From assembly GCA_947177735.1 (NCBI GenBank), contig CAMWVP010000017.1:1-32540 (forward strand): 32,540 bases of DNA. Reading direction: 5' to 3'. The DNA is from an uncultured Clostridia bacterium. Lineage in GTDB: Bacteria; Bacillota; Clostridia; Oscillospirales; Ruminococcaceae. Below, piece by piece: positions 8,775 to 30,552 of the stretch. Made by a program: the position numbers and the translations under genes. The notes beneath the pieces were generated by a model. It was not told the origin of the DNA, searched no databases, and was given only the letters and a program-made list of their open reading frames with translations. Each line of letters opens with the position of its first letter. The first letter of the stretch is position 1.

Positions 8775-8803
8775 TTGACAAGTGCTTTTTTACATGGTAT
8801 AAT
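8775..8803 (+). promoter_or_regulatory. Consensus promoter of rplJ-rplL
   Basis: TTGACA (8775-8780), 17 bases, TATAAT (8798-8803): a perfect sigma-A consensus, as expected for a highly expressed ribosomal protein operon. It lies directly after engB, so rplJL is transcribed independently. Confidence 0.92.
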
Positions 8804-8811
8804 AATTATGC

Positions 8812-8890
8812 TGTTCTAAAGACAGCAGGTTGCCGTTTGGCTATAATGCGCGTTTACGCCGCCTGCCGAGGAATGGATAGATATGAATTC
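8812..8890 (+). ncRNA. Ribosomal protein L10 leader (autoregulatory mRNA element)
   Basis: The sequence AAAGACAGCAGG (from 8818) and its distal partner CCTGCCGAGG (8862-8871) form the core stem and the kinked internal-loop motif of the L10 leader family. A second hairpin lies between them (GCG...CGC around 8848-8859). In Firmicutes this leader binds the L10(L12)4 complex, so that surplus L10 represses its own operon. It sits between the promoter at 8775 and rplJ, exactly where the element is normally found. Outer limits are approximate. Confidence 0.85.
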
Positions 8891-8895
8891 TATCT

Positions 8896-8929
8896 CCCTT
8901 TCTGTTTTTGGCGGAAAGGGTTTTGTTTT
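8896..8929 (+). terminator. Attenuator hairpin in the rplJ leader
   Basis: CCCTTTC (8896-8902) and GAAAGGG (8914-8920) form a perfect 7-base stem, followed by TTTTGTTTT. It lies between the L10 leader and the rplJ ribosome binding site. This fits a transcription attenuation step controlled by L10 binding, although control at translation is also possible. Confidence 0.7.
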
Positions 8930-8960
8930 GGACAGCAAATTCTATAAGGAGGATTTGAAT

Positions 8961-16729: not shown

Positions 16730-18415
16730 ATGATATTATCAGGTTCTGACATAATCGTCGAGTGTCTGCTGGAGCAGGGCGCGGATACCGTATTCGGGTA
16801 TCCGGGCGGCGCTGTTCTGAATATTTACGACAGCCTGTACAAGCACAGCGACAAAATTCGTCACATCATAACCTCCCACGAGCAGGGCGCGTGCCATGCC
16901 GCGGACGGTTTTTCACGCGCAACGGGCAAAACGGGCGTCGTCATCGCGACCTCGGGTCCGGGCGCTACCAATCTCACGACGGGCTTGGCTACGGCGTATA
17001 TGGACTCCGTTCCGCTCGTGGCGATAACGGGTAACGTCTCCTGTGCCCTCCTCGGGCTTGACAGTTTCCAGGAGGTCGACATCACGGGCGTCACCATTCC
17101 CATCACAAAGCACAACTTTATAGTTAAGGATATCGCCGACCTCGCCGATACCCTCCGCCTGGCGTTCACAATAGCAGGCAGCGGACGCAAGGGCCCCGTG
17201 CTCGTCGATATCCCAAAGGACATCACCGCGGCAAAGTGCGAATACGAGCGCAAGGCTCCCGCGACTCCCGAGATAAGGAACCGCTTTACTGCGGAACAGC
17301 TCGACAAAGCAGCCGAGCTTATCGCGCAGAGCGAAAAGCCGTATATCTACGCAGGCGGCGGCGTTATCTCCTCCAACGCGGAGGACGAACTTAAAATGTT
17401 CGCCGAGCTGTGCGACGCTCCCGTGTCCTGCTCGCTGATGGGTCAGGGCGCTTACGACCAGACCGACCGCCGCTACATCGGTATGCTCGGTATGCACGGC
17501 ACGGTAAAAGCTGCCGCGGCGCTTAATGACTGCGATCTGTTCATCGGTATCGGAACGCGGTTCTCGGATCGCGTTATCGGCGACCCGACAGTATTCGGAA
17601 AAAATGCCAAAATAATCCATATCGACATCGACCCCGCAGAGTTTAACAAGAACGTCGAGGTATACACTACCCTGCAGGGCGACGTCAAGACTGTGCTCGG
17701 TGAGCTTTGCAAGCGCGTTGCGAAAAAGCAGAACGTCTGGACGGATAAGATGATACTTATGGACTTCGGCGAGCCCGTTCAGCAAGGCACGGAGGAGTTC
17801 CCCGTAACGCCCGAGGCGGTCATCGAAAAACTCGACGAGCTGACCGGAGGACAAGCGGTGGTATGCACCGAGGTCGGACAGAACCAGATGTGGGCGGCGC
17901 AGTACTACAAGTACCGCGAGCCGCGCTCGTTCGTGTCGTCGGGCGGCTTGGGAACTATGGGCTTCGGACTGGGCGCGTCTATCGGCGCAAAGGTCGGCTG
18001 CCCCGACAAGACCGTTGTCAACATCGCGGGCGACGGCAGCTTCGCTATGAACCTCAACGAGCTCATCACCGCCTCGGCGCATAATATCCCCATCATCGAA
18101 ATAGTTATTAACAACAACGTTCTCGGTATGGTGCGCCAGTGGCAGCGCCTGTTCTACGAGAAGCACTTCTCGCAGACCACGCTTGACAACCGACATATCG
18201 ACTATGTGAAGCTCGGCGAGAGCTTCGGTATACAGACGTTCGTTATCGCAAAAACGGAGGACATCGAGCCCGTGCTGAAAAAGGCCCTCGAAATATCCAA
18301 GACCGCTCCCTGTATGATCGAGATCAGAATAGACCGCGACATAAACGTTCTTCCGATGATCCCCGCGGGCAAGCCCGTTGTGGATCCGATAACCGAGATA
18401 GATTTGGAGGCGTGA
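16730..18415 (+). CDS. ilvB: Acetolactate synthase, large catalytic subunit
   Basis: ThDP-dependent enzyme (561 residues) that makes acetolactate or acetohydroxybutyrate, the first common step of branched-chain amino acid synthesis. The N-terminal ThDP glutamate is Glu51 in SHEQGACHAADGFSRATG. The central FAD-binding domain follows, and the C-terminal ThDP/Mg motif runs from GDGS (434-437) to VINNN. GMVRQWQ and the C-terminal region are typical of anabolic AHAS and not of catabolic AlsS. The start follows AAAGGAAAGGG. It is coupled to ilvN, whose ATG lies 2 bases after the ilvB stop. Confidence 0.96.
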   Translation: MILSGSDIIVECLLEQGADTVFGYPGGAVLNIYDSLYKHSDKIRHIITSHEQGACHAADGFSRATGKTGVVIATSGPGATNLTTGLATAYMDSVPLVAITGNVSCALLGLDSFQEVDITGVTIPITKHNFIVKDIADLADTLRLAFTIAGSGRKGPVLVDIPKDITAAKCEYERKAPATPEIRNRFTAEQLDKAAELIAQSEKPYIYAGGGVISSNAEDELKMFAELCDAPVSCSLMGQGAYDQTDRRYIGMLGMHGTVKAAAALNDCDLFIGIGTRFSDRVIGDPTVFGKNAKIIHIDIDPAEFNKNVEVYTTLQGDVKTVLGELCKRVAKKQNVWTDKMILMDFGEPVQQGTEEFPVTPEAVIEKLDELTGGQAVVCTEVGQNQMWAAQYYKYREPRSFVSSGGLGTMGFGLGASIGAKVGCPDKTVVNIAGDGSFAMNLNELITASAHNIPIIEIVINNNVLGMVRQWQRLFYEKHFSQTTLDNRHIDYVKLGESFGIQTFVIAKTEDIEPVLKKALEISKTAPCMIEIRIDRDINVLPMIPAGKPVVDPITEIDLEA

Positions 18416-18417
18416 TC

Positions 18418-18888
18418 ATGAGGGAATATGTACTTTCCGTTAAGGTAAACAACAATATCGGCGTTCTCGCGCGTATCGGCGGACTTTTCAGCCGCCGCTG
18501 CTTCAGCATAAAGAGCCTTAACTCCGCGGAGACCGAGGAGGAAAACACCTCACGGCTGACTATCGTCGTCGCGGCGGATATCAGAAGTCTCGAGCAGATA
18601 AAAAATCAGCTGATGAAGCTCTATGACGTTCACGAGGTAAGGATTCTCGACGACGCCGTAACGCGCGAGCATATCCTTATCCGCGCAGGCAAGACCTCCG
18701 AGGATCGCCACAAGATCATCGAGATCGCGAACCTTTACCGCGCAAAGCCCGTTGACGTGGGCGCGGACTCGATAATGCTCGAGCTCACGGGCGAGCCCGT
18801 GAAGATCGACAGCTTTATTGACCTTTTGAAGCCGTTTGGCATTATCAAAATGGTGCGCTCGGGCATCACCGCTCTGGAGCGCGACTGA
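18418..18888 (+). CDS. ilvN: Acetolactate synthase, small regulatory subunit
   Basis: Regulatory subunit (156 residues) that gives IlvB full activity and valine feedback control. The N-terminal ACT domain begins REYVLSVKVNNNIGVLARIGGLFSRRCFSIKSL, with the conserved Asn/Gly valine-site residues. The C-terminal AHAS_reg domain contains RAKPVDVGADSIMLELTG and ends with GIIKMVRSGITALERD. ATG 18418 is preferred to the GTG at 18412 because GGAGG has ideal spacing. No ilvC or other ilv gene follows. The next gene starts 81 bases on and is unrelated. Confidence 0.95.
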   Translation: MREYVLSVKVNNNIGVLARIGGLFSRRCFSIKSLNSAETEEENTSRLTIVVAADIRSLEQIKNQLMKLYDVHEVRILDDAVTREHILIRAGKTSEDRHKIIEIANLYRAKPVDVGADSIMLELTGEPVKIDSFIDLLKPFGIIKMVRSGITALERD

Positions 18889-18969: not shown

Positions 18970-21066
18970 ATGAACAAGAAGAAAATTATAGCAATGCTGA
19001 CGGCAATGGTCATACTTTCCGGCTGCTCCACCAACGACGGTCCGATCGTTACGGACAGCTCCGAGAACGGGAGCATTCTCGAGAACTCCGAGAACACCGA
19101 AGTCTCAACTCCCGAGAGCACTCTGCCCGGGATCCCGACCGAAAAATCAGGTATGCCCGAGGAAATATCGGACTACATAAAGTCGCTTGACAACGGCGAT
19201 TTTGTTTTCGTGGATTACGCGTTTTATGAGAAACTCGTCGTTATCACCGGCGCTTCCCAGCTCGGCGACGCTTATGATAAGGCGCTGGCGGCTTTAAAGG
19301 AGACCGACGACTACAAGAGCTTTTCCGAGGGTTACGCAAGCGCGGAGCTTTTCGGACGGTTTATCGAAAACGCCGAGGATTTCCTCGATGAAAACGGCGA
19401 ACCCGTGCCGATCTTTAAAAGAGCGATCACAGGCGACTTTGACGGAGACGGCGTTGAGGAAAGCTTTGCGATGATAGCTATCGCCACGAAACGTGATGAC
19501 GACGAGCTTTGGCAGGAGCGCGAATATCTTTTCTTCGTGAATGAAAGCGGCGCGGAGCTGCTTGACGACTACTACAATGCCGATATTCAAGCGGTTTTGG
19601 ATTACGGCTCCTGCAAACAGTTGATCGTCTCCTCCGAGGGTTGGTCGGGTACGGATAGCAAGTCAAACATATGGGGAGTTCAAAACGGGAATGCCGTTAA
19701 ACTGTACGGCGGACGGCTCAACTTCTCGAAAACGGATTGTTTTCTGTATTCCACGGGTCAGCAGCTTATCGGCGACTTTGCGGTTTTCGACATAAACAAG
19801 GGCGAGTATCTGGCGATACAGGGCAAGGAGCTTACAGCCGAGGATATCCGCGCTATGGATACCGATAATATTATCGGCGGCGAATATGACAGCATTGCAG
19901 ACGCCGTACTGATTGGCGGTAAGTATTTTGTTATCAACAAAAACGGCGTATATACTTACGAAAACGGCAAATTTAAGCGCTCCGACAAAAAGGTTCGGGG
20001 TTCAGATACGCCCGGAATTACGGGCGACGCGCTGAATACGCTTGCCGACGTTGATTATGACGCGGCGGTAGCTTCAATGATAGCGCCCGAGGAAAACACA
20101 AGCGACCCGGTCGTTAACAATTGGAAACAAATTGTGTTGGTCGATTACACCCTTGAGAAAGACCCCAAAAGCGCCGACGCCGAAGATGCCGCGGAATATA
20201 TCTCAAAGGCAGAGGAAGAATTACTGAAATCGGATACGTACAAGCAAAGTGCGGAGCATTTCACTCTTGATGTCCTGTCGTCCGAAAAACCGCTTATTGA
20301 AAATCCCGAAAAATTTTTCGGTGAGGACGGAAAGCTCAGACCGATATTCAAATGCGCTTTCGTTGATGATTATGACAACGACGGTACCGAGGAAGCGTTT
20401 GTGGCGCTCGGTATTCCCACACTCGAATTCACGGGAGAAAGAATGTTCTTGTTTTTAGCGAATGCGGACGGCGCAAAGCCTGTCCCTAATGAGCTCATAC
20501 ACTTCCACGGCGATAATACGTTCTACCTGCTTGATTACGGTTGCTGCAAGCAGCTGGCTATATCTACGAACGGAGACTTAGGTGTTGATTTAAGATCGAT
20601 GATCATAGGTGTTTCCGGCGGCAAAGCAGAATTGCATTTCGCGCAAAGAAGTTGCGTTCTAAGAAAATACGGTCCGTTTCTGGCGACAGACGACGCGCAG
20701 TTTGATTCGTATTACGGGTTCTTCGACGCAAAGACCCGAAAATATTATTCGACATTCGGAAAAAAGCTTGGCCCCGATGAAATAAAAGCTATGGATACTT
20801 CCGGCAGCATAGCGGCGAGCGGCGAAACATTGGAAAATTTCGTATATTATGTTATCGGCGGAAAGTATTATTACTTTAAGGGTATGCTGGGACATGACGC
20901 TTTGTTCACCTATGAGGACGGGACGTTTACAAAACTCGACAGCAATGAATACGCGTTCCGACCCAGCATCTGTATATTTGATATGTTTTCCGAAATACCC
21001 GATATAGATTACGACGCGGCGCTGACTTCGATGATCACTCCCGAAGAAGCAAGGCAATTAACTTAA
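18970..21066 (+). CDS. Secreted lipoprotein with two tandem repeats and Asp-rich calcium-type loops
   Basis: A 698-residue protein not recognised as a named family. It has a lipoprotein signal (lipobox LSGC, Cys19) and a Ser/Thr/Glu-rich linker to about residue 70. Two homologous halves follow, offset by about 310 residues. Matching landmarks are DFDGDGVEESF (156-166) and DYDNDGTEEAF (467-477), LDYGSCKQL and LDYGCCKQL, IRAMDT and IKAMDT, and VDYDAAVASMI (361-371) and IDYDAALTSMI (679-689). The D-x-D-x-D-G loops resemble EF-hand or FG-GAP calcium sites. AGAAGGAAA precedes the ATG. It lies alone between ilvN and lysR. It may be a surface binding protein; the function is unknown. Confidence 0.8.
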   Translation: MNKKKIIAMLTAMVILSGCSTNDGPIVTDSSENGSILENSENTEVSTPESTLPGIPTEKSGMPEEISDYIKSLDNGDFVFVDYAFYEKLVVITGASQLGDAYDKALAALKETDDYKSFSEGYASAELFGRFIENAEDFLDENGEPVPIFKRAITGDFDGDGVEESFAMIAIATKRDDDELWQEREYLFFVNESGAELLDDYYNADIQAVLDYGSCKQLIVSSEGWSGTDSKSNIWGVQNGNAVKLYGGRLNFSKTDCFLYSTGQQLIGDFAVFDINKGEYLAIQGKELTAEDIRAMDTDNIIGGEYDSIADAVLIGGKYFVINKNGVYTYENGKFKRSDKKVRGSDTPGITGDALNTLADVDYDAAVASMIAPEENTSDPVVNNWKQIVLVDYTLEKDPKSADAEDAAEYISKAEEELLKSDTYKQSAEHFTLDVLSSEKPLIENPEKFFGEDGKLRPIFKCAFVDDYDNDGTEEAFVALGIPTLEFTGERMFLFLANADGAKPVPNELIHFHGDNTFYLLDYGCCKQLAISTNGDLGVDLRSMIIGVSGGKAELHFAQRSCVLRKYGPFLATDDAQFDSYYGFFDAKTRKYYSTFGKKLGPDEIKAMDTSGSIAASGETLENFVYYVIGGKYYYFKGMLGHDALFTYEDGTFTKLDSNEYAFRPSICIFDMFSEIPDIDYDAALTSMITPEEARQLT

Positions 21067-21089: not shown

Positions 21090-22016
21090 ATGAACATTCT
21101 GCACCTTAAATACGCGGTCGAGGTCGCTAAGACACAATCGATCAGCAAAGCGGCGGAGAATTTGTACATGGGTCAGCCGAACCTTTCGCGCGCGATAAAG
21201 GAGCTCGAAGAATCGCTTGGGATAACCATTTTTAAGCGTACCTCAAAAGGCATCACCACTACTCCCGACGGCGACGAGTTTCTCCGCAGAGCGCGGCGCA
21301 TCGTCGCGCAGGTAGACGAGGTGGAGGAAATATACCGCAATGGGAAAACTCATAAGCAGACGTTTTCGGTATGCGTGCCGAGAGCCAGCTACTTCTCGGT
21401 GGCTATGGCGGAGTTCTCCAAGCACATCTCGCTCGGCGAGCCCGCGGAGATATTCTACAAGGAGACCAACTCCATGCGGACGATAACAAATGTCACGCGC
21501 GGGGATTTTAACCTCGGCATCGTCCGATATCAGGCGGCGTTCGAGAAGTACTTCGTCGAGATGTTCGCGGAGAAAAAGCTCGAATACGATACCGTCGCCG
21601 AGTTCACCTATCAGATGGCGGTCAAGAGCGACAGTCCGCTCGCGAAAAAGGAAAATATTTCCATCGAGGAGCTGAAGGACTACATCGAGATCACCCACGG
21701 CGATCCGTACGTCCCTTCCCTGCCGCTTATCGACGTGAAAAAGGCCGAGCTCTCGGAGCACGTAGACAAACGCATATACGTGTTCGAGCGCGCAACGCAG
21801 TTTATGCTTCTCGGCAACGTTCCGAATACCTTTATGTGGATGTCGCCCGTGCCTCAGTGTCTGCTCGACAGCTACGGGCTCGTTCTCCGCAAGGTCTCCG
21901 AGCACGCAAAGCCCTATAAGGACGTGCTCATATACCGCAAGGACTACAAGCTCTCGGCGCTCGATAAGCAGTTTATCACCGATGTTTGCGACGCCAAGCA
22001 CCAATGTTTTCCTTAA
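21090..22016 (+). CDS. LysR family transcriptional regulator
   Basis: A 308-residue regulator. The N-terminal winged helix-turn-helix covers about residues 1-60 (LKYAVEVAKTQSISKAAENLYMGQPNLSRAIKELEESLGITIFKRTSKG...TPDGDEFL). A substrate-binding-like effector domain follows. Several gut Clostridia carry a LysR gene close to alcohol or hydrogenase genes, but the effector is unknown. It reads in the same direction as adhE, unlike the usual divergent LysR layout. Dyads at 22040-22056 and 22070-22086, just past its stop, could be its binding sites, which would make adhE its target. AAAGGA precedes the ATG. Confidence 0.9.
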   Translation: MNILHLKYAVEVAKTQSISKAAENLYMGQPNLSRAIKELEESLGITIFKRTSKGITTTPDGDEFLRRARRIVAQVDEVEEIYRNGKTHKQTFSVCVPRASYFSVAMAEFSKHISLGEPAEIFYKETNSMRTITNVTRGDFNLGIVRYQAAFEKYFVEMFAEKKLEYDTVAEFTYQMAVKSDSPLAKKENISIEELKDYIEITHGDPYVPSLPLIDVKKAELSEHVDKRIYVFERATQFMLLGNVPNTFMWMSPVPQCLLDSYGLVLRKVSEHAKPYKDVLIYRKDYKLSALDKQFITDVCDAKHQCFP

Positions 22017-22039
22017 ACGGAAAAAATTACCGATTTCAA

Positions 22040-22086
22040 CACATTATCCCTATGTGATGGGCTGATAACGTATATGTCAAATATAC
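22040..22086. promoter_or_regulatory. Two dyads upstream of the adhE promoter, candidate LysR sites
   Basis: CACAT-N7-ATGTG (22040-22056) and GTATAT-N5-ATATAC (22070-22086) are both perfect 17-base dyads; the first also fits the T-N11-A rule of LysR boxes. They lie just upstream of the -35 box at 22089. A further CACAT...ATGTG pair (22091-22095 and 22106-22110) overlaps the core promoter. Assignment to LysR is inference from position and form. Confidence 0.4.
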
Positions 22087-22088
22087 AT

Positions 22089-22117
22089 TTCACATATCGC
22101 AAGGAATGTGTTAAAAT
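22089..22117 (+). promoter_or_regulatory. Promoter of the adhE-hydrogenase operon
   Basis: TTCACA (22089-22094), 17 bases, TAAAAT (22112-22117). The -10 lies inside the Rex-type operator, so a bound repressor would block RNA polymerase directly. Confidence 0.65.
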
Positions 22118-22124
22118 ATTAACA
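22109..22124. promoter_or_regulatory. Rex operator (redox-sensing repressor binding site)
   Basis: TGTTAA-AATA-TTAACA is a perfect dyad. It matches the core of the Gram-positive Rex consensus TTGTTAA-N4-TTAACAA, with the next base on the right also matching. Rex leaves DNA when NADH is high, and adhE and hydrogenase genes are classic Rex targets in Clostridia. The rex gene itself is not in this window. Confidence 0.82.
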
Positions 22125-22125
22125 A

Positions 22126-22300
22126 GGAGGGAAATACTGTATCCCAAAAGTAAAAACGGCGTTTCCCGAATGTAAAAGGCAAACCGCACAGTATGCGCTC
22201 AAGGCTACGCTTGGCATATCAGAGAGCGTCGGCACTTAGCCGTAACGAGCTCTATTTCAGAGCCGCGCCGAACGCGGAAATGCGGAAAAAATAACTATGC
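22126..22300 (+). other. Long dyad-rich 5' leader of adhE, candidate structured RNA
   Basis: This accounts for the 301 bases between lysR and adhE that are not promoter. Several pairings can be drawn: GGGAAA (22129-22134) with TTTCCC (22162-22167), competing with ATACTGT (22134-22140) and ACAGTAT (22188-22194). CGCTC (22196-22200) pairs with GAGCG (22224-22228), or ACGCT (22207-22211) with AGCGT (22225-22229) inside GGCTA/TAGCC. GCTCT (22249-22253) pairs with AGAGC (22259-22263), and CCGCG (22263-22267) with CGCGG (22273-22277). No T-run follows, so any control would be on translation or stability. I do not recognise a known riboswitch class. Confidence 0.45.
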
Positions 22301-22317
22301 ATAAGGAGAAGATGACT

Positions 22318-24951
22318 ATGAATTACGAGATCGTTGACAGCGCAAAGTCCTTTGACGCTGCGCTCGAGAGAGTAAGAGCGGCACAGGCGAAGTTCGCCGA
22401 GTTCACTCAGGAGCAGGTCGACAAGATATTCCTGGCTGCCGCTTCCGCTGCCAATAAGCAGAGGGTACCGCTCGCTAAAATGGCTGTCGAGGAGACGGGA
22501 ATGGGTATCGTGGAGGATAAGGTTATCAAGAACAACTACGCCTCCGAGCATATCTACAACGCCTATAAGGACGTGAAGACCTGCGGCGTTATCGAGGAGG
22601 ATCCGGCTTACGGCATCACCAAGATCGCGGAGCCTATCGGCGTTATCGGCGCGGTTATCCCGACCACCAACCCCACCTCTACTTCTATCTTCAAGTGCCT
22701 TGTCTGCCTTAAGACAAGAAACGGTATCATCATCAGCCCCCATCCCCGTGCAAAGAACTGCACTATCGAGGCTGCCAAGATCGTTTATGAGGCTGCCGTT
22801 AAGGCGGGAGCTCCCGAGGGCATTATCGCATGGATAGACGTTCCCTCGCTCGACCTCACGAACCAGCTCATGAAAGAGGTAGACCTTATCCTTGCAACGG
22901 GCGGTCCCGGCATGGTCAAGTCCGCATATTCTTCGGGCACACCGGCTCTCGGTGTCGGCGCGGGCAACGCTTCCGCGATCATCGACCAGTCTGCCGATAT
23001 CGTATGTGCGGTCAACTCGATAATTCACTCCAAGACCTTCGATAACGGTATGATCTGCGCGACCGAGCAGACCGTTATTGCCGACAAGAAGATATACAAC
23101 GAGGTAAAGAAAGAATTCACCAAGAGAGGCTGCTACTTCCTGAAAGCCGACGAGGCTCAGAAGATACGCAAGACGCTGCTTATCAACGGCGCTCTGAACG
23201 CTAAGGTAGTCGGTCAGCGCCCCGTTACCATCGCGAAGATGGCGGGCTTTGAGGTTCCCGAGGAGACAAAGGTGCTCATTGGCGAGGCTACCTCCACCGA
23301 CCGCGAGGAGGCTTTCGGTCACGAAAAGCTCACAACTATCCTCGGTATGTACAAGTCGGAGAATTTCGACAACGCGCTCGATATCGCCGATACCCTGCTG
23401 CACAACAACGGCGGTCTCGGTCATACCTCCGTACTGTGGATCAATCCCGCGGAGAGAGAAAAGCTGCTCAAGTTCTCGCACAGAATGAAGACCTGCCGTC
23501 TTATCATCAACACTCCGTCGTCTCTGGGCGGCATCGGCGATCTGTACAACTTCAAGTTCGCTCCCTCGCTCACGCTGGGCTGCGGCTCGTGGGGCGGCAA
23601 CTCCGTTTCCGAAAACGTTGGAGTTAAACATCTGCTGAATATCAAGACCGTAGCCGAGAGGAGAGAGAATATGCTGTGGTTTCGCGCGCCCGAAAAGGTT
23701 TACATCAAGAAGGGCTGTCTGCCCGTTGCTCTTAAGGAGCTCAAGGACGTTCTGGGCAAGAAGAGAGCGTTCGTCGTTACCGACTCGTTTATGTTCAAGA
23801 GCGGCTTCACGAAGCACATCACCGACAGACTGGAGGAGATGGGCATTACTTACACCGTATTCTCCGACGTTGAGCCCGATCCCTCCCTCAAATCCGCTCA
23901 GATGGGCGCAGAGGCTATGCGCAAGTTTGAGCCCGACTGCATTATCGCAATGGGCGGCGGCTCCGCTATGGACGCGGGCAAGATCATGTGGGTTCTGTAC
24001 GAGCACCCCGACGCTGACTTCCAGGATATGGCAATGCGCTTTATCGATATCCGCAAGAGAGTTTACACGTTCCCGAAGATGGGCGAAAAGGCTTACTTTA
24101 TCGCTGTTCCGACCTCCGCGGGTACAGGCTCCGAGGTTACTCCGTTCGCGGTAATCACCGATCAGGATACCGGCGTTAAGTATCCTCTTGCCGACTACGA
24201 GCTCATGCCGAATATGGCTATCGTTGATCCCGACCTTATGGAAACGGGTCCCAAGGGTCTGACCTCCGCTTCCGGTATCGACGCCGTTACTCACGCTATG
24301 GAGGCTATCGCTTCCGTTATGGCTACCGACTATACCGACGGTCTTGCTAAGCAGGCGCTCAAGGTCATCTTCGATTATCTGCCGAGAGCATACGATTCCG
24401 CTCCCTCGAGAGACGACGCGGGCAAGCCCGATCCCGTTGCTCGCGAGAAGATGGCAAACGCGGCTACTATGGCGGGTATGGCGTTCGCGAACGCGTTCCT
24501 CGGCGTATGCCACTCCATGGCGCATAAGCTCGGCGCGTTCCACCACATTCCTCACGGCGTTGCAAACGCGCTGCTGATCGACGAGGTCATCCGCTTCAAC
24601 TCCTCCGAGAAGCCCACAAAGATGGGTACGTTCTCGCAGTACGACCACCCGCACACCCTCGAACGCTACGCCGAGGTAGCGGAATACCTCGGCTGCAAGG
24701 GCAAGTCCGATGAGGAAAAGGTTGAGGCTCTCATCACCAAGATCGACGAGCTCAAGGACTACATCGGCATCAAGAAGACTATCAAGGATTATGCTCCCGA
24801 CGAGAAGGACTTCCTCGACAGACTTGACGAGATGGTCGAGCAGGCGTTCGACGATCAGTGCACGGGCGCTAACCCGCGCTACCCGCTTATGTCCGAGATC
24901 AAGCAGATGTACCTCAACGCTTACTACGGCAAGACAACAAAGCTGGTTTAA
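22318..24951 (+). CDS. adhE: Bifunctional acetaldehyde/alcohol dehydrogenase AdhE
   Basis: Two-domain enzyme of 877 residues that reduces acetyl-CoA to acetaldehyde and then ethanol with NADH, regenerating NAD during fermentation. The N-terminal CoA-dependent aldehyde dehydrogenase domain (to about residue 440) has the catalytic Cys247 in NGMICATEQ. The C-terminal iron-dependent alcohol dehydrogenase domain has GGGSAMDAGK (546-555) and the metal-binding region HSMAHKLGAFHHIPHG (His732 onward). AdhE normally assembles into spirosomes. Start 22318 is chosen because AAGGAG lies 9 bases upstream; in-frame ATGs at 22297 and 22312 are too early or too close. First gene of the hydrogenase operon. 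Confidence 0.97.
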   Translation: MNYEIVDSAKSFDAALERVRAAQAKFAEFTQEQVDKIFLAAASAANKQRVPLAKMAVEETGMGIVEDKVIKNNYASEHIYNAYKDVKTCGVIEEDPAYGITKIAEPIGVIGAVIPTTNPTSTSIFKCLVCLKTRNGIIISPHPRAKNCTIEAAKIVYEAAVKAGAPEGIIAWIDVPSLDLTNQLMKEVDLILATGGPGMVKSAYSSGTPALGVGAGNASAIIDQSADIVCAVNSIIHSKTFDNGMICATEQTVIADKKIYNEVKKEFTKRGCYFLKADEAQKIRKTLLINGALNAKVVGQRPVTIAKMAGFEVPEETKVLIGEATSTDREEAFGHEKLTTILGMYKSENFDNALDIADTLLHNNGGLGHTSVLWINPAEREKLLKFSHRMKTCRLIINTPSSLGGIGDLYNFKFAPSLTLGCGSWGGNSVSENVGVKHLLNIKTVAERRENMLWFRAPEKVYIKKGCLPVALKELKDVLGKKRAFVVTDSFMFKSGFTKHITDRLEEMGITYTVFSDVEPDPSLKSAQMGAEAMRKFEPDCIIAMGGGSAMDAGKIMWVLYEHPDADFQDMAMRFIDIRKRVYTFPKMGEKAYFIAVPTSAGTGSEVTPFAVITDQDTGVKYPLADYELMPNMAIVDPDLMETGPKGLTSASGIDAVTHAMEAIASVMATDYTDGLAKQALKVIFDYLPRAYDSAPSRDDAGKPDPVAREKMANAATMAGMAFANAFLGVCHSMAHKLGAFHHIPHGVANALLIDEVIRFNSSEKPTKMGTFSQYDHPHTLERYAEVAEYLGCKGKSDEEKVEALITKIDELKDYIGIKKTIKDYAPDEKDFLDRLDEMVEQAFDDQCTGANPRYPLMSEIKQMYLNAYYGKTTKLV

Positions 24952-24962
24952 TCAGGATTGAC

Positions 24963-24994
24963 GCGCTTCGGGAGGTTTCCTCTCCCGCAGGCGC
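24963..24994 (+). other. Intercistronic hairpin between adhE and the kinase gene
   Basis: CGGGAG (24969-24974) pairs with CTCCCG (24982-24987), extended across a small internal loop by GCGC/GCGC (24963-24966 and 24991-24994). There is no T-run, so it is unlikely to terminate. It may stabilise the adhE message or set the ratio of adhE to the downstream genes. Confidence 0.6.
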
Positions 24995-25028
24995 ATACGA
25001 TAATAAATTACTTTAGGAGGAAAAGGCT

Positions 25029-25778
25029 ATGTCCGATAGAATTATTGCCGTTCGTACAGGCAAGACGGTTTACCGCGAGGGTGAGACCGCCGTCAAGGTT
25101 TTTGACAAGGATTACGCGAAATACGACGTTCTCAGCGAGGCGCTCAATCAGGCGCGCGTGGAGGACATCGGCATTAACGTGCCCAAGATCATAGAAGTAA
25201 AGACCGTCGAGGACGGAAAGTGGGCGATCGTTTCCGAGTTCGTTCAGGGAAAGACCCTCGCACAGCTTATGAAAGAGAACCCCTCAAAGAAGGACGAGTA
25301 TCTGGAGATGTTCGTCGACCTGCAGATGAAGATGCACTCGACCGTCTGCCCCGGGCTTACGAAGCTCAAGGATAAGATGAACCGCAAGATAAGCGAGGCG
25401 GATCTTGACGCTACTACCCGCTACGAGCTGCACACAAGACTTGAGAGTATGCCCAAGCACAACAAGGTTTGCCACGGCGATTTCAACCCCGATAATATCA
25501 TTGTCAAGGATGACGGTACACCGTATATCCTTGACTGGAGCCACGCTACACAGGGCAACGCTTCCGCGGACGTTGCGAGAACATACCTGCTGTTCTGGCT
25601 CTCCGGCGATATCGATCTCGCCGAGAAGTATCTCGATATGTTCTGCCGCAAGAGCGACACCGCAAAGCAGTACATTCAGAAGTGGCTGCCCATCGTCGCT
25701 GCTTCGCAGTCCGTAAAGGGCAAGCAGGAGGAACGCGAGTTCCTGCTCGGCTGGGTAAACGTAGTTGAATATGATTGA
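25029..25778 (+). CDS. Aminoglycoside-phosphotransferase-fold kinase
   Basis: A 249-residue small-molecule or protein kinase of the APH/choline kinase fold. The catalytic loop is HGDFNPDN (149-156; Asp151 and Asn156) and the metal aspartate is Asp169 in ILDWSHA. The N-terminal lobe is short, with EGETAVKVF supplying a likely ATP-binding Lys. It starts after TTTAGGAGG and lies between adhE and the [2Fe-2S] gene. In Ruminococcus albus 7 the comparable transcription unit was reported to include a serine/threonine protein kinase. A role opposite the SpoIIE phosphatase at 27830 is an inference. Antibiotic resistance is not implied. Confidence 0.82.
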   Translation: MSDRIIAVRTGKTVYREGETAVKVFDKDYAKYDVLSEALNQARVEDIGINVPKIIEVKTVEDGKWAIVSEFVQGKTLAQLMKENPSKKDEYLEMFVDLQMKMHSTVCPGLTKLKDKMNRKISEADLDATTRYELHTRLESMPKHNKVCHGDFNPDNIIVKDDGTPYILDWSHATQGNASADVARTYLLFWLSGDIDLAEKYLDMFCRKSDTAKQYIQKWLPIVAASQSVKGKQEEREFLLGWVNVVEYD

Positions 25779-25796
25779 TATTTTGGGAGGTTTATT

Positions 25797-26036
25797 ATGA
25801 AAGTAACCGTATGTATCGGAAGCTCCTGCCACCTCAAGGGCTCGCGTCGCGTTGTTGAGGGCTTGCAGTACCTTATCGCCGAGAACAACCTTAAAGAAAA
25901 GGTGGAGCTGGGCGGAACGTTTTGCATGAACAACTGTCAGAACGGCGTCTGCGTAAACGTTGACGACAAGACGTTCTCTGTGTCTCCCGACACCGTTGAC
26001 GACTTTTTCAAGACGGAAATTCTCGCAAAGGTTTGA
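25797..26036 (+). CDS. Thioredoxin-like [2Fe-2S] ferredoxin (NuoE C-terminal type)
   Basis: A 79-residue redox protein with the thioredoxin-like [2Fe-2S] fold. The four cluster ligands are visible as C-x4-C (CIGSSC, Cys6 and Cys11) and C-x3-C (CMNNC). Such stand-alone domains accompany [FeFe]-hydrogenases and carry electrons or sense redox state. It has a strong Shine-Dalgarno (GGGAGG), lies 18 bases after the kinase stop, and is 124 bases upstream of hydS. Length is typical of the single domain. It could pass electrons between HydS and an unknown partner. Confidence 0.88.
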   Translation: MKVTVCIGSSCHLKGSRRVVEGLQYLIAENNLKEKVELGGTFCMNNCQNGVCVNVDDKTFSVSPDTVDDFFKTEILAKV

Positions 26037-26059
26037 TCGTGTAATATCTTGACCGTTTT

Positions 26060-26084
26060 CCCGCTGCATAACTTATGCGGCGGG
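26060..26084 (+). other. Strong intercistronic hairpin upstream of hydS
   Basis: CCCGCTGCATAA (26060-26071) faces TTATGCGGCGGG (26073-26084); every position pairs if T-G wobble is allowed. ATTTGCGGATATTTTT follows. It sits in the 124-base gap between the [2Fe-2S] gene and hydS and could be a partial terminator or RNA processing site that lowers expression of the sensor. Confidence 0.65.
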
Positions 26085-26160
26085 ATTTGCGGATATTTTT
26101 CCGTTTCTGGAACCCGGTGCAGTCTATGAGCTGCAAAAAACTGTAATAAGGAGTTTTACC

Positions 26161-27837
26161 ATGGCAGAATTTTTGAAGCTGAAAAAGTCCAATTGCAAAA
26201 ACTGCTACAAATGTATCAGGCACTGCCCCGTAAAATCTATCAGATTTTCGGGAAATCAGGCGAATATTGTCGGCGACGAATGTATCCTCTGCGGGCAATG
26301 CTTTGTTGTATGTCCGCAAAACGCCAAGGAAATAGCCGACAGCACCGAGCGTGTGAAGTTCTTTATCAGCTCGGGAGAAAAGGTGTACGCGTCAATTGCT
26401 CCCTCGTTTGTGGCGAACTATGACGGCGCGGGCATTGAGGCGCTGACCAAGGCGCTCAAGGAGCTCGGATTCGCGGGCGCGGAGGAGACCGCTGTCGGCG
26501 CGACTATCGTCAAGACCGAGTACGAGCGCCTTATCCGCGAGGACAAGCGCGATGTTCTCATTTCCTCGTGCTGCAACTCGATAAACCTGCTCATTCAGAA
26601 GTACTACCCCGAGGCGCTGGAATATCTGGCAGACGTGCTCTCCCCTATGCAGGCGCACTGTCAGGATCTGAAAAAGCGCTATCCCGGCTGCAAGACGGTA
26701 TTTATCGGTCCGTGCGTTTCCAAGAAAGAAGAGGCTGCACGCTATGCCGACTACACCGACGACGTGCTTACATTCGAGGAGCTCACAAACTGGCTCAACG
26801 AGGCGGGCGTTAAAATCGACAAGAGCATGGATTCCAACAATCAGAGCCGCGCAAGACTTTTCCCGACATCGGGAGGAGTTCTCCGCACGATGGCGGAGCG
26901 CGACCCCAACTATACATACCTCGTGTTCGACGGCATGGACAACGCTAAGGAAGCCCTCGAGGAGGTTATCGAGGGCAAGCTGCACAACTGCTTTATCGAA
27001 ATGTCGGCGTGTGCGGGAAGCTGCGCGAACGGCCCCGTTATGGAGAAGTATAAAAAGTCCCCCGTCGCGTCCGCGATGTCTATCAACAAGTACGCGGGCA
27101 AGGAGGATTTCGTTGTCAGCCAGCCCGACAAGGCGGAGCTCCACAAGAAGATGACGATGCTCGACACCAAGGCGGCTGTGCCTACCGAAAGCGAGATCGC
27201 GGCTATCCTCCGCAGAATGGGCAAGGTTCGCCCCGAGCAGGAGCTCAACTGCGGCTCGTGCGGCTACAACACATGCCGCGAAAAGGCTATCGCGATATAC
27301 CGCGGAAAGGCGGATATCTCGATGTGTCTGCCGTTCCTCAAGGATAAGGCGGAGAGCTTCTCCGACAATATCATCTCGAACACTCCGAACGCCATCATCG
27401 CGCTCAACGAGAACCTCGAGATACAGCAGATAAACAAGGCCGCGCTGAAGCTTATGAACATCGGTCACGCGCAGGACGTTATGGGCGAACAGGTTATACG
27501 CATACTCGACCCGGGCGTGTTTATGGACGTTATGGAGACCAACAGACCCGTCCGTGACGAGCGCAAGTACCTTACCGAGTACGACAAGTATGTCGAACAG
27601 ACGGTGATCTACGATTCGGAATACCGCATCATAATCTGCCTTATGCGCGACGTTACCGATGAGGAAAAGGAAAAGGTTCGCAAGGAGAATGTCGGCAGAA
27701 AGACCGCCGATATTGCCGACAAGGTTGTTGAGAACCAGATGAGGATAGTACAGGAGATCGCTTCGCTTCTCGGCGAGACCGCCGCGGAAACGAAGGTGGC
27801 GCTGATGAAACTGAAGGAGTCGATCGCCGATGAATAA
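26161..27837 (+). CDS. hydS: Sensory [FeFe]-hydrogenase with PAS domain (HydS-type, group C)
   Basis: Predicted H2 or redox sensor of 558 residues. Two [4Fe-4S] ferredoxin motifs lie at Cys12/15/18/22 and Cys41/44/47/51. The H-cluster domain follows with divergent signatures: L1 SSCCNS (Cys137, Cys138), L2 IGPCVSKKE (Cys185) and L3 EMSACAGSC (Cys284, Cys288). An extra [4Fe-4S] domain comes next (Cys364/367/372/389), then a PAS domain (about 405-510, TPNAIIALNENLEIQQINKAA) and a C-terminal helix. This order is that of group C sensory hydrogenases. L1 lacks the Pro-x-Trp of catalytic enzymes. It overlaps the phosphatase gene by 8 bases, so sensor and phosphatase are probably coupled. Confidence 0.9.
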   Translation: MAEFLKLKKSNCKNCYKCIRHCPVKSIRFSGNQANIVGDECILCGQCFVVCPQNAKEIADSTERVKFFISSGEKVYASIAPSFVANYDGAGIEALTKALKELGFAGAEETAVGATIVKTEYERLIREDKRDVLISSCCNSINLLIQKYYPEALEYLADVLSPMQAHCQDLKKRYPGCKTVFIGPCVSKKEEAARYADYTDDVLTFEELTNWLNEAGVKIDKSMDSNNQSRARLFPTSGGVLRTMAERDPNYTYLVFDGMDNAKEALEEVIEGKLHNCFIEMSACAGSCANGPVMEKYKKSPVASAMSINKYAGKEDFVVSQPDKAELHKKMTMLDTKAAVPTESEIAAILRRMGKVRPEQELNCGSCGYNTCREKAIAIYRGKADISMCLPFLKDKAESFSDNIISNTPNAIIALNENLEIQQINKAALKLMNIGHAQDVMGEQVIRILDPGVFMDVMETNRPVRDERKYLTEYDKYVEQTVIYDSEYRIIICLMRDVTDEEKEKVRKENVGRKTADIADKVVENQMRIVQEIASLLGETAAETKVALMKLKESIADE

Positions 27838-29002
27838 TCTATGTGCCGATATTGGCTGGAAAAGCCTTAACCACGTTGGAGAACAGCTCTGCGGCGACCA
27901 TATCGAGATAATCGAGATGGACGATGATTCGATGGTGCTCGTGCTCGCGGACGGTCTGGGGAGCGGCGTTAAAGCGTCGATACTTTCCACACTCACCTCG
28001 AAGATCATCGCGACAATGACCTCGCAGGGCATTTCTCTGGAGGAGTGCGTAAAGACGATCGCCGCTACCTTGCCTATCTGCAAGGAGCGCGAGGTCGCGT
28101 ATTCCACGTTCACCATTATCCGTCTTATCAAAAACGAGGAGGCGGAGATAATCTGCTACGACAACCCGGACGTGATAATGTTCCGCGACGGGAAGATATA
28201 CGATTATCCGCTCAAGGAGCTGGATATCGAGGGCAAGACTATCCATAAAGCGCGCGTGAAGCTGCGGGAAAACGACACGTTCATCGCGATGAGCGACGGC
28301 TGTATTCACGCGGGCGTTGGAATGTCGCTGAATTTCGGCTGGGAGCGCAAGGATATCGCCGAGTTTATGGAATCGCTTACCGACGTCGGCTTCACCGCGA
28401 AAACGCTTTCGACAGTGCTTACCGACGAATGTCTTAAGCTCTACGGCGGCAATCCCGGTGACGATACTACGGCTATGACCGTACGTATCCGCGCAAGGCA
28501 GCAGATGAATCTGATGATAGGTCCCCCCTCCGACAGAAACGACTGCGACAAAATGGTATCGCTGTTCCTCTCAAAGGGCGGCAAGCGCATAGTATGCGGA
28601 GGTACGACCTCTACTATCGTGTCGCAGCACCTTAAAAAGCCGATAATCCCGAATATCAACTACTTCGACCCCGAGATACCGCCGACCGCGACTATTGAGG
28701 GCATTGACCTCGTGACCGAGGGCGTTATCACGATAAACCGCGTGAACGAATACGCCAAGGATTACCTCACGAATAACGAGAGCTACAAGCAGTGGAACTA
28801 CAAGCAAGACGGCGCGGCAATGATATCGCGTATGCTGTTTGAGGAAGCCACCGACATCAACTTCTATGTAGGCAGAGCGGTCAACCCCGCGCATCAGAAC
28901 CCCAATCTGCCGATCAACTTCAACATTAAAATGCAGCTCGTCAACGAATTGTCCGAAAGCCTTAAGAAGATGGGCAAGAAGATAAAGGTCAACTATTTCT
29001 AA
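27830..29002 (+). CDS. SpoIIE/PP2C-type serine phosphatase with an extra C-terminal domain
   Basis: A 390-residue protein. Residues 1 to about 220 form a PP2C-like SpoIIE phosphatase domain, with metal aspartates in VLADGLGSG (Asp41), AMSDGC (Asp156) and GDDTTAM (about 211-212). Residues about 225-390 form a second domain that I do not recognise; it begins IGPPSDRNDCDKMVSLFLSKGGKRIVCGGTTS and contains IIPNINYFDPEIPPTATIEGIDLVTEGV. It overlaps hydS by 8 bases, and hydA begins 12 bases after its stop. It probably passes on the HydS signal by removing phosphate from a Ser/Thr of an unknown protein. Confidence 0.88.
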   Translation: MNNLCADIGWKSLNHVGEQLCGDHIEIIEMDDDSMVLVLADGLGSGVKASILSTLTSKIIATMTSQGISLEECVKTIAATLPICKEREVAYSTFTIIRLIKNEEAEIICYDNPDVIMFRDGKIYDYPLKELDIEGKTIHKARVKLRENDTFIAMSDGCIHAGVGMSLNFGWERKDIAEFMESLTDVGFTAKTLSTVLTDECLKLYGGNPGDDTTAMTVRIRARQQMNLMIGPPSDRNDCDKMVSLFLSKGGKRIVCGGTTSTIVSQHLKKPIIPNINYFDPEIPPTATIEGIDLVTEGVITINRVNEYAKDYLTNNESYKQWNYKQDGAAMISRMLFEEATDINFYVGRAVNPAHQNPNLPINFNIKMQLVNELSESLKKMGKKIKVNYF

Positions 29003-29014
29003 GGAGAAAACGAT

Positions 29015-30508
29015 ATGGATCACAAAACCGATTATATATATGACAGTACCGGAAAGCTCATATATAAATTCGACACCAAGGTGCAGTACCTCAAATACAA
29101 GGTGCTGCGCGAGGTGGCGCGCCAAGCATGGGCGGGAACGCTTTTCGAGAATGTTTTCGATATTCCGAAGATGATCGTTCCCGGCAAAGAGCCGACAATG
29201 CGCTGCTGCGTCTACAAGGAGCGCGCGATACTCGGCGAGCGCGTTAAGATCGCGATGGGCGGCGACAAGAACAACCCCAACGTTATCGAGGTCATAGAGA
29301 CCGCCTGCGACGAATGTCCGATGGGCGGCTATGAGGTAACGAACGCCTGCCGCGGCTGTCTCGCGCACCGCTGTATGGACGCGTGCCGCAAGGGCGCTAT
29401 CTCGTTCGACCATAATCAAAAGGCGCACATCGACAAGTCCAAGTGCGTTGAGTGCGGATTGTGCGCTAAGAGCTGCCCCTACACCGCGATAATGAACTTC
29501 AAGCGCCCGTGCGTAAGCGCGTGCAAGGTAAACGCTATCTCGATGAACGAGGACAAGGCGGCGAAGATCGACAACGACAAGTGCATTTCCTGCGGCGCGT
29601 GCGTTTATCAGTGTCCGTTCGGAGCTATCACCGATAAGTCGTTCATCATCAATGTTATCGATATGATCCAGAAGAGCGAAAAGCATAAGAAATACAAGGT
29701 GTACGCGCTCGTAGCGCCCGCTATCGGCTCGCAGTTCGCATACGCGAAGCTCGGACAGGTCGTCAAGGGCATCAAGGAGCTCGGATTCTACACCGTCATC
29801 GAAGCGGCGCTTGGCGCGGATATGGTTGCGTACCTGGAGAGCAAGGAGCTCGCAGAAAGCGGCGACTACCTTACCTCGAGCTGCTGCCCAGCGTTTGTGG
29901 ACTACATTCACAAGAGCTTCCCGAATATGGCGGATCACATCTCGCACAACCTCTCCCCTATGGCGACGATAGCGCGGTACATAAAATCCACCGATCCGAC
30001 CGCGAAGATCGTGTTCATCGGTCCGTGCACTGCCAAGAAGATGGAATTCCAGAAGGAGACCGTACGCCCGTACATCGACAGCGTTATCACGTTTGAGGAG
30101 CTTCAGGCGCTGTTCGACAGCAAGGACATCGACATTCGCGACCTCGACGAGGACATTCTCGACAACGCTTCCTACTACGGACGTATCTTCGCGCGCAGCG
30201 GCGGTCTGGCTGACGCGGTTCAGCAGGCGCTCAAGGAGCAGAATCTCGGCGACTTCGAGCTCAAGGCGGTTTCCTGCGACGGTATAGAGGCGTGCAAGAT
30301 GGCGCTGCTCAAGAAGAGCAAGGGCGCACTCGACGCGAACTTTATCGAGGGTATGGCGTGCGTCGGCGGCTGTATAGGCGGCGCGGGCTGTCTGACCCAC
30401 GGCGAGAAAAACAAGGCGGAGGTCGACAAATACGGCAAAGAGGCAATGGAGAAAACCATTTCCGAGGCAATCAGCCTTGTCAAGATGCCGGAGGAGCAGC
30501 ATTCCTAA
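29015..30508 (+). CDS. hydA: Monomeric ferredoxin-dependent [FeFe]-hydrogenase, group B (HydA2-like)
   Basis: Catalytic hydrogenase of 497 residues that makes H2 from reduced ferredoxin in the cytoplasm. The N-terminal part carries a Cys-rich stretch (CDECPMGG, CRGCLAHRCMDACRKGA) and ferredoxin-like [4Fe-4S] motifs (CVECGLCAKSCP, CISCGACVYQCP). The H-cluster domain has L1 TSSCCPAF (Cys290, Cys291), L2 IGPCTAKK (Cys338) and L3 EGMACVGGCIGG (Cys449, Cys453), the group B pattern. No NADH-binding subunits are present, so it is not the bifurcating HydABC enzyme. AAGGAGA precedes the ATG. It is the last gene of the operon, followed by a strong terminator. Confidence 0.92.
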   Translation: MDHKTDYIYDSTGKLIYKFDTKVQYLKYKVLREVARQAWAGTLFENVFDIPKMIVPGKEPTMRCCVYKERAILGERVKIAMGGDKNNPNVIEVIETACDECPMGGYEVTNACRGCLAHRCMDACRKGAISFDHNQKAHIDKSKCVECGLCAKSCPYTAIMNFKRPCVSACKVNAISMNEDKAAKIDNDKCISCGACVYQCPFGAITDKSFIINVIDMIQKSEKHKKYKVYALVAPAIGSQFAYAKLGQVVKGIKELGFYTVIEAALGADMVAYLESKELAESGDYLTSSCCPAFVDYIHKSFPNMADHISHNLSPMATIARYIKSTDPTAKIVFIGPCTAKKMEFQKETVRPYIDSVITFEELQALFDSKDIDIRDLDEDILDNASYYGRIFARSGGLADAVQQALKEQNLGDFELKAVSCDGIEACKMALLKKSKGALDANFIEGMACVGGCIGGAGCLTHGEKNKAEVDKYGKEAMEKTISEAISLVKMPEEQHS

Positions 30509-30523
30509 AGAAAGCGAAATATT

Positions 30524-30552
30524 ATCGGGGATAGCGATATCCCCGATTTTTT
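30524..30552 (+). terminator. Rho-independent terminator of the adhE-hydrogenase operon
   Basis: ATCGGGGAT (30524-30532) and ATCCCCGAT (30539-30547) form a perfect 9-base stem with a 6-base loop, followed by TTTTTT. Confidence 0.93.

Follow-up and report, generated by a model that had tools for sequence, protein, structure and literature searches.

Genomic context suggests that an ethanol and hydrogen operon of an uncultured Clostridia bacterium joins two separable modules

A stretch of 32,540 nucleotides from an uncultured Clostridia bacterium of the Ruminococcaceae (GenBank assembly GCA_947177735.1, contig CAMWVP010000017.1; hereafter the window) carries a fermentation operon of six genes: adhE, an APH-fold kinase gene, and genes for a [2Fe-2S] protein, the PAS-containing sensory [FeFe]-hydrogenase HydS, a SpoIIE-type PPM phosphatase and the hydrogenase HydA. 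Genomic context suggests that the kinase is the partner of adhE and the phosphatase the partner of HydS, and that the two enzymes are probably not one matched on/off pair. We tentatively read the unit as a composite fermentation operon, with two separable modules behind one NADH-gated promoter, in which the HydS tail would switch the phosphatase and the kinase would be tied to adhE; we give this reading close to an even chance (about 0.48). The route from H2 sensing by [FeFe]-hydrogenases to gene expression bears on whether gut and rumen fermenters form acetate and H2 or ethanol. The initial annotation of this DNA had proposed an H2-dependent Ser/Thr phosphorylation switch, made of kinase and phosphatase, that chooses between ethanol and H2. 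On present evidence this proposal is partly supported, in that an H2 sensor with a coupled phosphatase finds support and a matched kinase-phosphatase switch does not. We replace the general kinase and phosphatase idea with specific predictions, namely a 34-residue HydS tail that would bind and switch the phosphatase, a Rex site, and a kinase target on the AdhE side.

The near relatives counted in this paragraph are the best 80 of 576 named relatives, with HydS identities of 62-81%; by title they are mostly metagenome-assembled genomes of Clostridia from gut or rumen, with one Ruminococcus bromii, and the scan of named relatives may omit records very close to the window's genome. The phosphatase gene lies directly 3' of hydS in 73 of the 74 relatives with at least 1.3 kb downstream, the 8-nt overlap between the two genes is retained in 72 of 73, and hydA follows in 59 of the 64 with at least 3.5 kb downstream. 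Because this gene order and the overlap recur among relatives, the layout is not a product of chance. Two 2Fe-2S matches precede hydS in 54 of 72 relatives. Where 4.2 kb of upstream sequence is present (47 relatives), adhE and the kinase occur together in 32, the kinase alone in 10, neither in 5, and adhE without the kinase in 0. The proposed link with ethanol genes is supported. Co-occurrence of all six genes across Clostridia had been put forward as a check; on comparison with relatives the operon falls into two parts. Among 40 PPM loci chosen across the phylum, HydS is directly upstream of the phosphatase in 40, a 2Fe-2S match is present in 38, and the kinase is present in 1. The proposed coupling of the phosphatase to hydS is supported. 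A kinase match of any sort at 1e-15 was found in 17 of 299 phylum genomes and a PPM match in 92 of 299; the absence of the kinase from elsewhere in phylum genomes with the HydS-PPM module rests solely on this 1e-15 scan. A HydS scan of viral contigs gave no match.

The kinase follows adhE into other settings. Among 61 near relatives, close kinase copies are not confined to genomes that have an intact HydS match, and 20 loci from genomes without one were chosen and fetched. The kinase comes directly after adhE in 16 of them, with no intact HydS or PPM seen, and precedes a group B hydrogenase in the other 4. At least 3.2 kb lies downstream in 14 of these 16 adhE-kinase loci; the contig ends 394 nt after the kinase in one (L218) and 146 nt after it in another (L228), where the locus alone cannot exclude HydS, and neither of the two genomes (85 and 89% complete) yielded a full HydS. 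One further locus of the 16 (L227) keeps the 2Fe-2S gene and a PPM fragment. The two modules also occur apart within one genome, HydS-PPM (L164) and adhE-kinase (L248) lying on different contigs, and a distant kinase paralogue at 7 places has neither adhE nor hydA as a neighbor. Kinase scores have a median of 362 bits without adhE (n=10) versus 420 bits with it (n=32; p = 3e-5), whereas neither HydS scores (p = 0.92) nor PPM scores (p = 0.52) differ by adhE presence; these p-values are rough, as the sequences are related and were scored against the window's own adhE-linked copy. The kinase tree, a quick tree with several long branches, served for context labels only, and one of these is wrong: L248, labeled there as having no neighbors, does have adhE next to the kinase, whose open frame overlaps it.

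What the kinase acts on is less clearly marked by its family. APH is its best Pfam family, over residues 16-206; the Pkinase model reaches 24.1 bits, under its cut-off of 31.7, while RIO1, an atypical protein-kinase family, scores 39.9 bits against a cut-off of 22, over residues 128-175 only. The label of Ser/Thr protein kinase is therefore unsettled, with the low Pkinase score and the better APH match speaking against it and the RIO1 match for it. The catalytic residues are intact (K23, H149, D151, N156 and D169, to which we assign their presumed roles). It is possible, though we hold it doubtful, that the enzyme has a purely metabolic role, phosphorylating a small molecule in the manner of APH/choline-kinase enzymes, and takes no part in signaling. 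Such an activity would suit the family scores, the NCBIfam matches (TIGR02172 and thiamine kinase among them, all below cut-offs) and the PDB matches to choline and hygromycin kinases. It sits less well with the RIO1 score, with the Bud32 and MAP-kinase-kinase-like chain among the weak matches, and with the genomic context, where only adhE or hydA, of the neighbor genes looked for, proved linked.

The operon's genes and predicted control elements are listed in Table 1. All six genes lie on the plus strand by open reading frame (ORF) and profile analysis, with gaps of 77 nt between adhE and the kinase, 18 nt between the kinase and the 2Fe-2S gene, 124 nt between that gene and hydS, and 12 nt between PPM and hydA, a spacing that suggests one transcript for all six. 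The ORFs, family profiles and terminator hairpin match the initial annotation in its strand, its hydS/PPM overlap and its terminator, and its assignment of the hydrogenase to group B is confirmed by the TIGR04105 score. The adhE ORF is listed from 22297, but the ATG at 22318 is the likelier start, since a ribosome-binding AAGGAG at 22303-22308 sits between both candidates and relatives align there. Two features go beyond the earlier description: a Rex-type operator over the -10 box and, in the gap that precedes hydS, a strong hairpin that lacks a U tract. The latter occupies the place where most relatives carry a second 2Fe-2S gene, and 8 of 8 loci, the window's own and those of 7 close relatives, form a hairpin there, with differing stem sequences.

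Table 1. Positions of the operon's genes, domains and predicted control elements in the window
Feature	Position	Strand	Basis
LysR-family regulator	21090-22016	+	HTH_1 66.7 bits
Conserved block TATG...TGATA...TATG just 5' of the -35 box	22036-22090	+	Footprint in 11 aligned upstream regions including the window
Sigma-70-like promoter TTCACA-17-TAAAAT, TG before the -10 box	22089-22117	+	10 of 12 positions
Rex-type operator GTGTTAAAATATTAACAA over the -10 box (predicted)	22108-22125	+	1 mismatch to TTGTTAANNNNTTAACAA
adhE, bifunctional acetaldehyde/alcohol dehydrogenase	22318-24951	+	PRK13805 equivalog 1356.7 bits (cut-off 951)
APH-fold kinase	25029-25778	+	APH PF01636 64.3 bits (cut-off 23.2)
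Thioredoxin-like [2Fe-2S] protein	25797-26036	+	2Fe-2S_thioredx PF01257 27.2 bits (cut-off 24.8)
Strong hairpin between the 2Fe-2S gene and hydS, no U tract	26060-26084	+	Fold of the 26037-26160 gap
hydS, PAS-containing sensory [FeFe]-hydrogenase, group C type	26161-27837	+	Fer4, Fe_hyd_lg_C, FeS PF04060, PAS PF00989
HydS C-terminal tail, residues 521-554, predicted amphipathic helix	27721-27822	+	Conservation and hydrophobic moment
SpoIIE-type PPM Ser/Thr phosphatase, 8-nt overlap with hydS	27830-29002	+	PF07228 56.7 bits (cut-off 25)
PPM C-terminal domain, about 166 aa	28502-28999	+	Conserved signatures; 0 Pfam families
hydA, monomeric group B [FeFe]-hydrogenase	29015-30508	+	TIGR04105 (FeFe_hydrog_B1) 582 bits (cut-off 450)
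Intrinsic terminator-like hairpin	30524-30547	+	10-bp stem then TTTTT

The promoter region points to NADH control of the first module. A match to the sigma-70 pattern is weak when taken alone, with 14 such matches found versus 10.4 in shuffles. The -10 box lies in a block invariant in 11 of 11 aligned upstream regions, the -35 box varies, and the operator core TGTTAAAATATTAACA is likewise invariant in all 11, the window included. Three of these regions come from adhE-kinase loci next to which no HydS was seen, one of which is the locus (L218) whose contig ends soon after the kinase. The operator is the only Rex-type site in the window, where 0.03 matches would be expected at up to 2 mismatches from TTGTTAANNNNTTAACAA, which we take to be the Rex operator consensus. 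At the same threshold, Rex-like sites occur at the operon starts of 22 of 56 relatives, again counting the window, versus 0.75 in shuffled DNA. Sorted by first gene, they are found in 14 of 16 operons led by adhE, in 7 of 19 led by rex, and in 1 of 21 led by the kinase, a 2Fe-2S gene or hydS, a tally by which Rex-like sites accompany adhE or rex among near relatives; three of the adhE-led operons (L056, L069, L070) open with a separate ORF that is Fe-ADH-like. The adhE-kinase loci tested carry a Rex-like site in 8 of 12 cases, versus 0.13 expected. The commonest extra neighbor of the near relatives' loci is rex itself, in 22 of 80 by clustering and 23 by direct search. A rex gene in the genome and an operator predicted at the promoter, the two marks of a Rex regulon member, are both present, the genome's single rex match lying outside the window (G000:C14:24222). 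The LysR gene upstream is probably transcribed separately and is a candidate regulator of the operon; a same-strand LysR gene lies upstream in 23 of the 35 relatives with at least 8 kb of upstream sequence, and the conserved block just 5' of the -35 box could possibly be its site.

HydS has the make-up of a sensor, as had been proposed. Its H-cluster cysteines C138, C185, C284 and C288 are invariant in 14 sequences, and it carries a C-terminal FeS domain (PF04060) and a PAS domain (PF00989), as do group C sensory [FeFe]-hydrogenases. At the positions we take, by motif, to correspond to CpI M353 and M497 it has Gly and Ser, and the Cys of CpI C299 is retained (C137). As a separate observation, the 81 class-level HydS sequences have CCH or CCN at C137-C138 (26569-26574), versus CCP in many phylum relatives, and they too retain this Cys. 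The best conserved segment of HydS is its C-terminal tail, with a mean top-residue fraction of 0.80 over 40 phylum-wide sequences; the C-terminal FeS domain follows at 0.74, the N-terminal clusters at 0.60, the H-domain at 0.52 and the PAS domain at 0.48. The tail has no proline, and its hydrophobic moment peaks at 100 degrees. It was found 39 times in 119 genomes, every time beside a PPM on comparison by eye.

The phosphatase encoded next to this tail appears to lack the part that usually regulates its family. Its metal-binding residues D23, D41, D156, D211 and D212 are invariant in 46 sequences, and its residues 18-221 align to residues 20-220 of the 242-residue SpoIIE chain 3t91, which we take to be the isolated phosphatase domain. 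There is thus no room for an N-terminal regulatory linker in cis of the RsbU/RsbP type, and none was found in PPM, which begins at the phosphatase core. The simplest reading of a phosphatase without a linker in cis is that the linker comes in trans, and the HydS tail is probably what plays this part. At its other end PPM carries a domain with the signatures GPP, CGGT, DLxTEG and NxAHQ in 35 aligned sequences across the phylum, of which GPP, GGT and TEG are invariant and NxAHQ near-invariant. Pfam returned 0 families for the window's copy and nothing consistent overall, and the sole match of a PDB profile search was a phosphoheptose isomerase, with E = 0.2. A DeoR-like (ISOCOT) fold had been suspected from the CGGTT motif, and was set aside as unproven when profile comparison with six DeoR domains gave it 0.3% probability. 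Among the literature matches listed, a scope that leaves subscription papers outside, no description was found of the HydS tail, the PPM C-terminal domain or the adhE-kinase pair.

Under the two-module reading, adhE and the kinase would form a first module under Rex, which a high NADH/NAD+ ratio would lift to allow ethanol formation, and the 2Fe-2S protein, HydS and PPM would form a second, with a ferredoxin-dependent group B hydrogenase after it in this operon. H2 bound at the HydS H-cluster would signal through the C-terminal [4Fe-4S] cluster to the PAS domain and from there to the helical tail, which would probably provide the linker in trans and so set PPM activity. Dephosphorylation of a target by PPM would then raise operon expression or AdhE activity; the sign of this control, like the substrates of both enzymes, is one that we infer. 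The kinase would be bound to adhE, not to H2 sensing, and would most likely modify AdhE or a small molecule of the ethanol branch. At high H2 and NADH the cell would thus make ethanol and vent ferredoxin electrons as H2, and at low H2 it would turn to acetate and a confurcating hydrogenase. A choice between ethanol and H2 does not fit, because adhE and the ferredoxin hydrogenase share an operon and because the eight-gene cluster of Ruminococcus albus 7 drops 111-fold when the organism is grown together with an H2 consumer (PMC6776011); the choice would rather lie between ethanol with ferredoxin-dependent H2 and acetate with confurcating H2. We think it unlikely that the arrangement is, in full, a split PAS-linker-PPM switch, with an activating helix on HydS, a ratio fixed by the 8-nt overlap and a second signal entering through the PPM C-terminal domain, the whole module fused, in this lineage, behind a Rex-controlled adhE-kinase pair whose kinase sets AdhE activity. 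If true, H2, NADH and AdhE modification would be combined in one operon.

A number of observations weigh against the two-module reading. On the side of Rex, sites with up to 2 mismatches are no commoner genome-wide (22) than in the control (27), so no regulon can be listed, and rex lies near 21 of the 40 phylum HydS-PPM loci, mostly without adhE, so that Rex is not confined to the ethanol module. In Thermoanaerobacterium saccharolyticum, rex expression and ethanol went up together, which runs counter to simple Rex repression (PMC5707799). On the side of the kinase, the 10 of 47 near relatives that have it without adhE are exceptions to the pairing, and 19 kinases labeled as accompanying HydS without adhE keep their catalytic residues (H149 in 18 of 19; D151, N156 and D169 in 19 of 19). 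Two phylum loci (L162 and L198) have adhE without the kinase, the former in the order rex-adhE-hydS-PPM. As for the tail, a match to it is missing from at least one genome that has a PPM (G065). Finally, in Thermoanaerobacterium thermosaccharolyticum lacking hfsABCD, hfsD alone restores high ethanol (PMC11837493), and since hfsD alone suffices, PPM is not needed there.

Two further alternatives are to be weighed against the same evidence. It is unlikely that Rex alone controls the operon through NADH/NAD+, with H2 acting through NADH and with HydS and PPM tuning the hydrogenase or serving in another role. The predicted operator over the -10 box would accord with this, as would the Rex-like sites at adhE-kinase pairs without adjoining HydS, the presence of rex near phylum HydS-PPM loci, and the hydrogen cycling that PMC11837493 offers to explain ethanol yield in Thermoanaerobacterium; the unbroken association of HydS with PPM in all 40 phylum loci speaks against it. 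We regard it as rather improbable that the kinase and PPM are writer and eraser of one phosphoprotein in an H2-dependent switch under HydS, for although their genes share an operon, the kinase is present in 42 of the 47 near relatives with sufficient upstream sequence, and Zheng et al. proposed signaling to the adjacent Ser/Thr kinase (as cited in PMC5707799), PPM and HydS do without the kinase in 39 of the 40 phylum loci, 16 of the 20 fetched loci (two of the 16 at contig ends) have the kinase after adhE and show no intact HydS or PPM, and kinase conservation falls with the loss of adhE and not of HydS. Mirror-tree distances lean toward this kinase-PPM pair, and so against the two-module reading: the kinase follows PPM most closely of all its pairs (r = 0.838, versus 0.775 for adhE; partial correlations 0.56 and 0.37). 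The mirror-tree correlation did not separate the models.

Elsewhere in the same genome (3.36 Mb in 247 contigs) there are five Fe_hyd_lg_C places, which include the HydS/HydA pair and two fusions. The fusions, on contigs C15 (L251:3443-5392) and C54 (L252:2989-4950), are soluble-looking and combine an H-cluster domain and an FeS domain with a methyl-accepting chemotaxis signaling domain, and with these besides HydS the genome has three putative H2 sensors. The fifth place is a HydA on contig C47, next to two HydB/HydC-sized genes that match a 2Fe-2S profile. Within the window, 5' of the LysR gene, an ORF of 698 aa (18970-21063) resembles a lipoprotein, has no Pfam family and, to the eye, seems made of two similar halves; it is preceded by genes for both the large and the small subunit of acetolactate synthase (16730-18888), and a ribosomal protein L10 leader RNA (59.7 bits) is found at 8798-8935.

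The unit is a further member of a kind whose outlines were already familiar from the R. albus 7 cluster and hfsABCD. In R. albus 7, Zheng et al. (2014) reportedly described a unit of aldehyde/ethanol dehydrogenase, kinase, phosphatase, hydS, hydA2 and a redox repressor. The kinship with that cluster that the initial annotation had noted is upheld by matching gene functions, since PMC6776011 likewise gives a putative operon with a bifunctional alcohol/aldehyde dehydrogenase, a PAS-type HydS, a Ser/Thr phosphatase and a ferredoxin hydrogenase. The window differs in that the rex gene lies outside it and only a predicted operator is present, and in that its hydrogenase matches the B1 model, whereas PMC6776011 labels the R. 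albus enzyme group A1.

The closest likeness in gene order is to hfsABCD of Thermoanaerobacterium and Clostridium thermocellum, which has the HydS-like HfsB with a PAS domain, the serine-phosphatase-like HfsC and the ferredoxin hydrogenase HfsD in the same order (PMC11837493); HfsA is described as aligning poorly with known proteins. Unlike the window's operon, hfsABCD has four genes and neither adhE nor the kinase. When hfsA or hfsB is deleted in T. saccharolyticum, ethanol goes up, the adhE transcript increases 2-3 fold and NADH-ADH activity rises while NADH-ALDH activity does not; without hfsC or hfsD, ethanol stays as in the wild type and the adhE transcript is not raised. The authors suspect that AdhE is also controlled after transcription (PMC5707799). 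By analogy, these data would fit an H2-free HydS that restrains PPM together with an AdhE open to modification; the later strain with hfsD alone (PMC11837493) partly contradicts this.

Other parallels lie in the domains themselves. RsbP, RsbU and SpoIIE share the PPM core and the order of a PAS sensor, then a helix, before the phosphatase, and coiled-coil linkers dimerize and activate phosphatases of the RsbU/RsbP type (PMC12143880). Here, unlike in those proteins, the sensor with its helix and the PPM are two proteins, and the PPM, lacking an N-terminal linker, carries an additional domain at its C-terminal end that is in no Pfam family. HydS resembles TmHydS of Thermotoga maritima, also of group C, in its H-cluster, C-terminal FeS domain, PAS domain and Gly/Ser substitutions, and differs from it in keeping the Cys at C137, a position reported to be altered in sensory enzymes.

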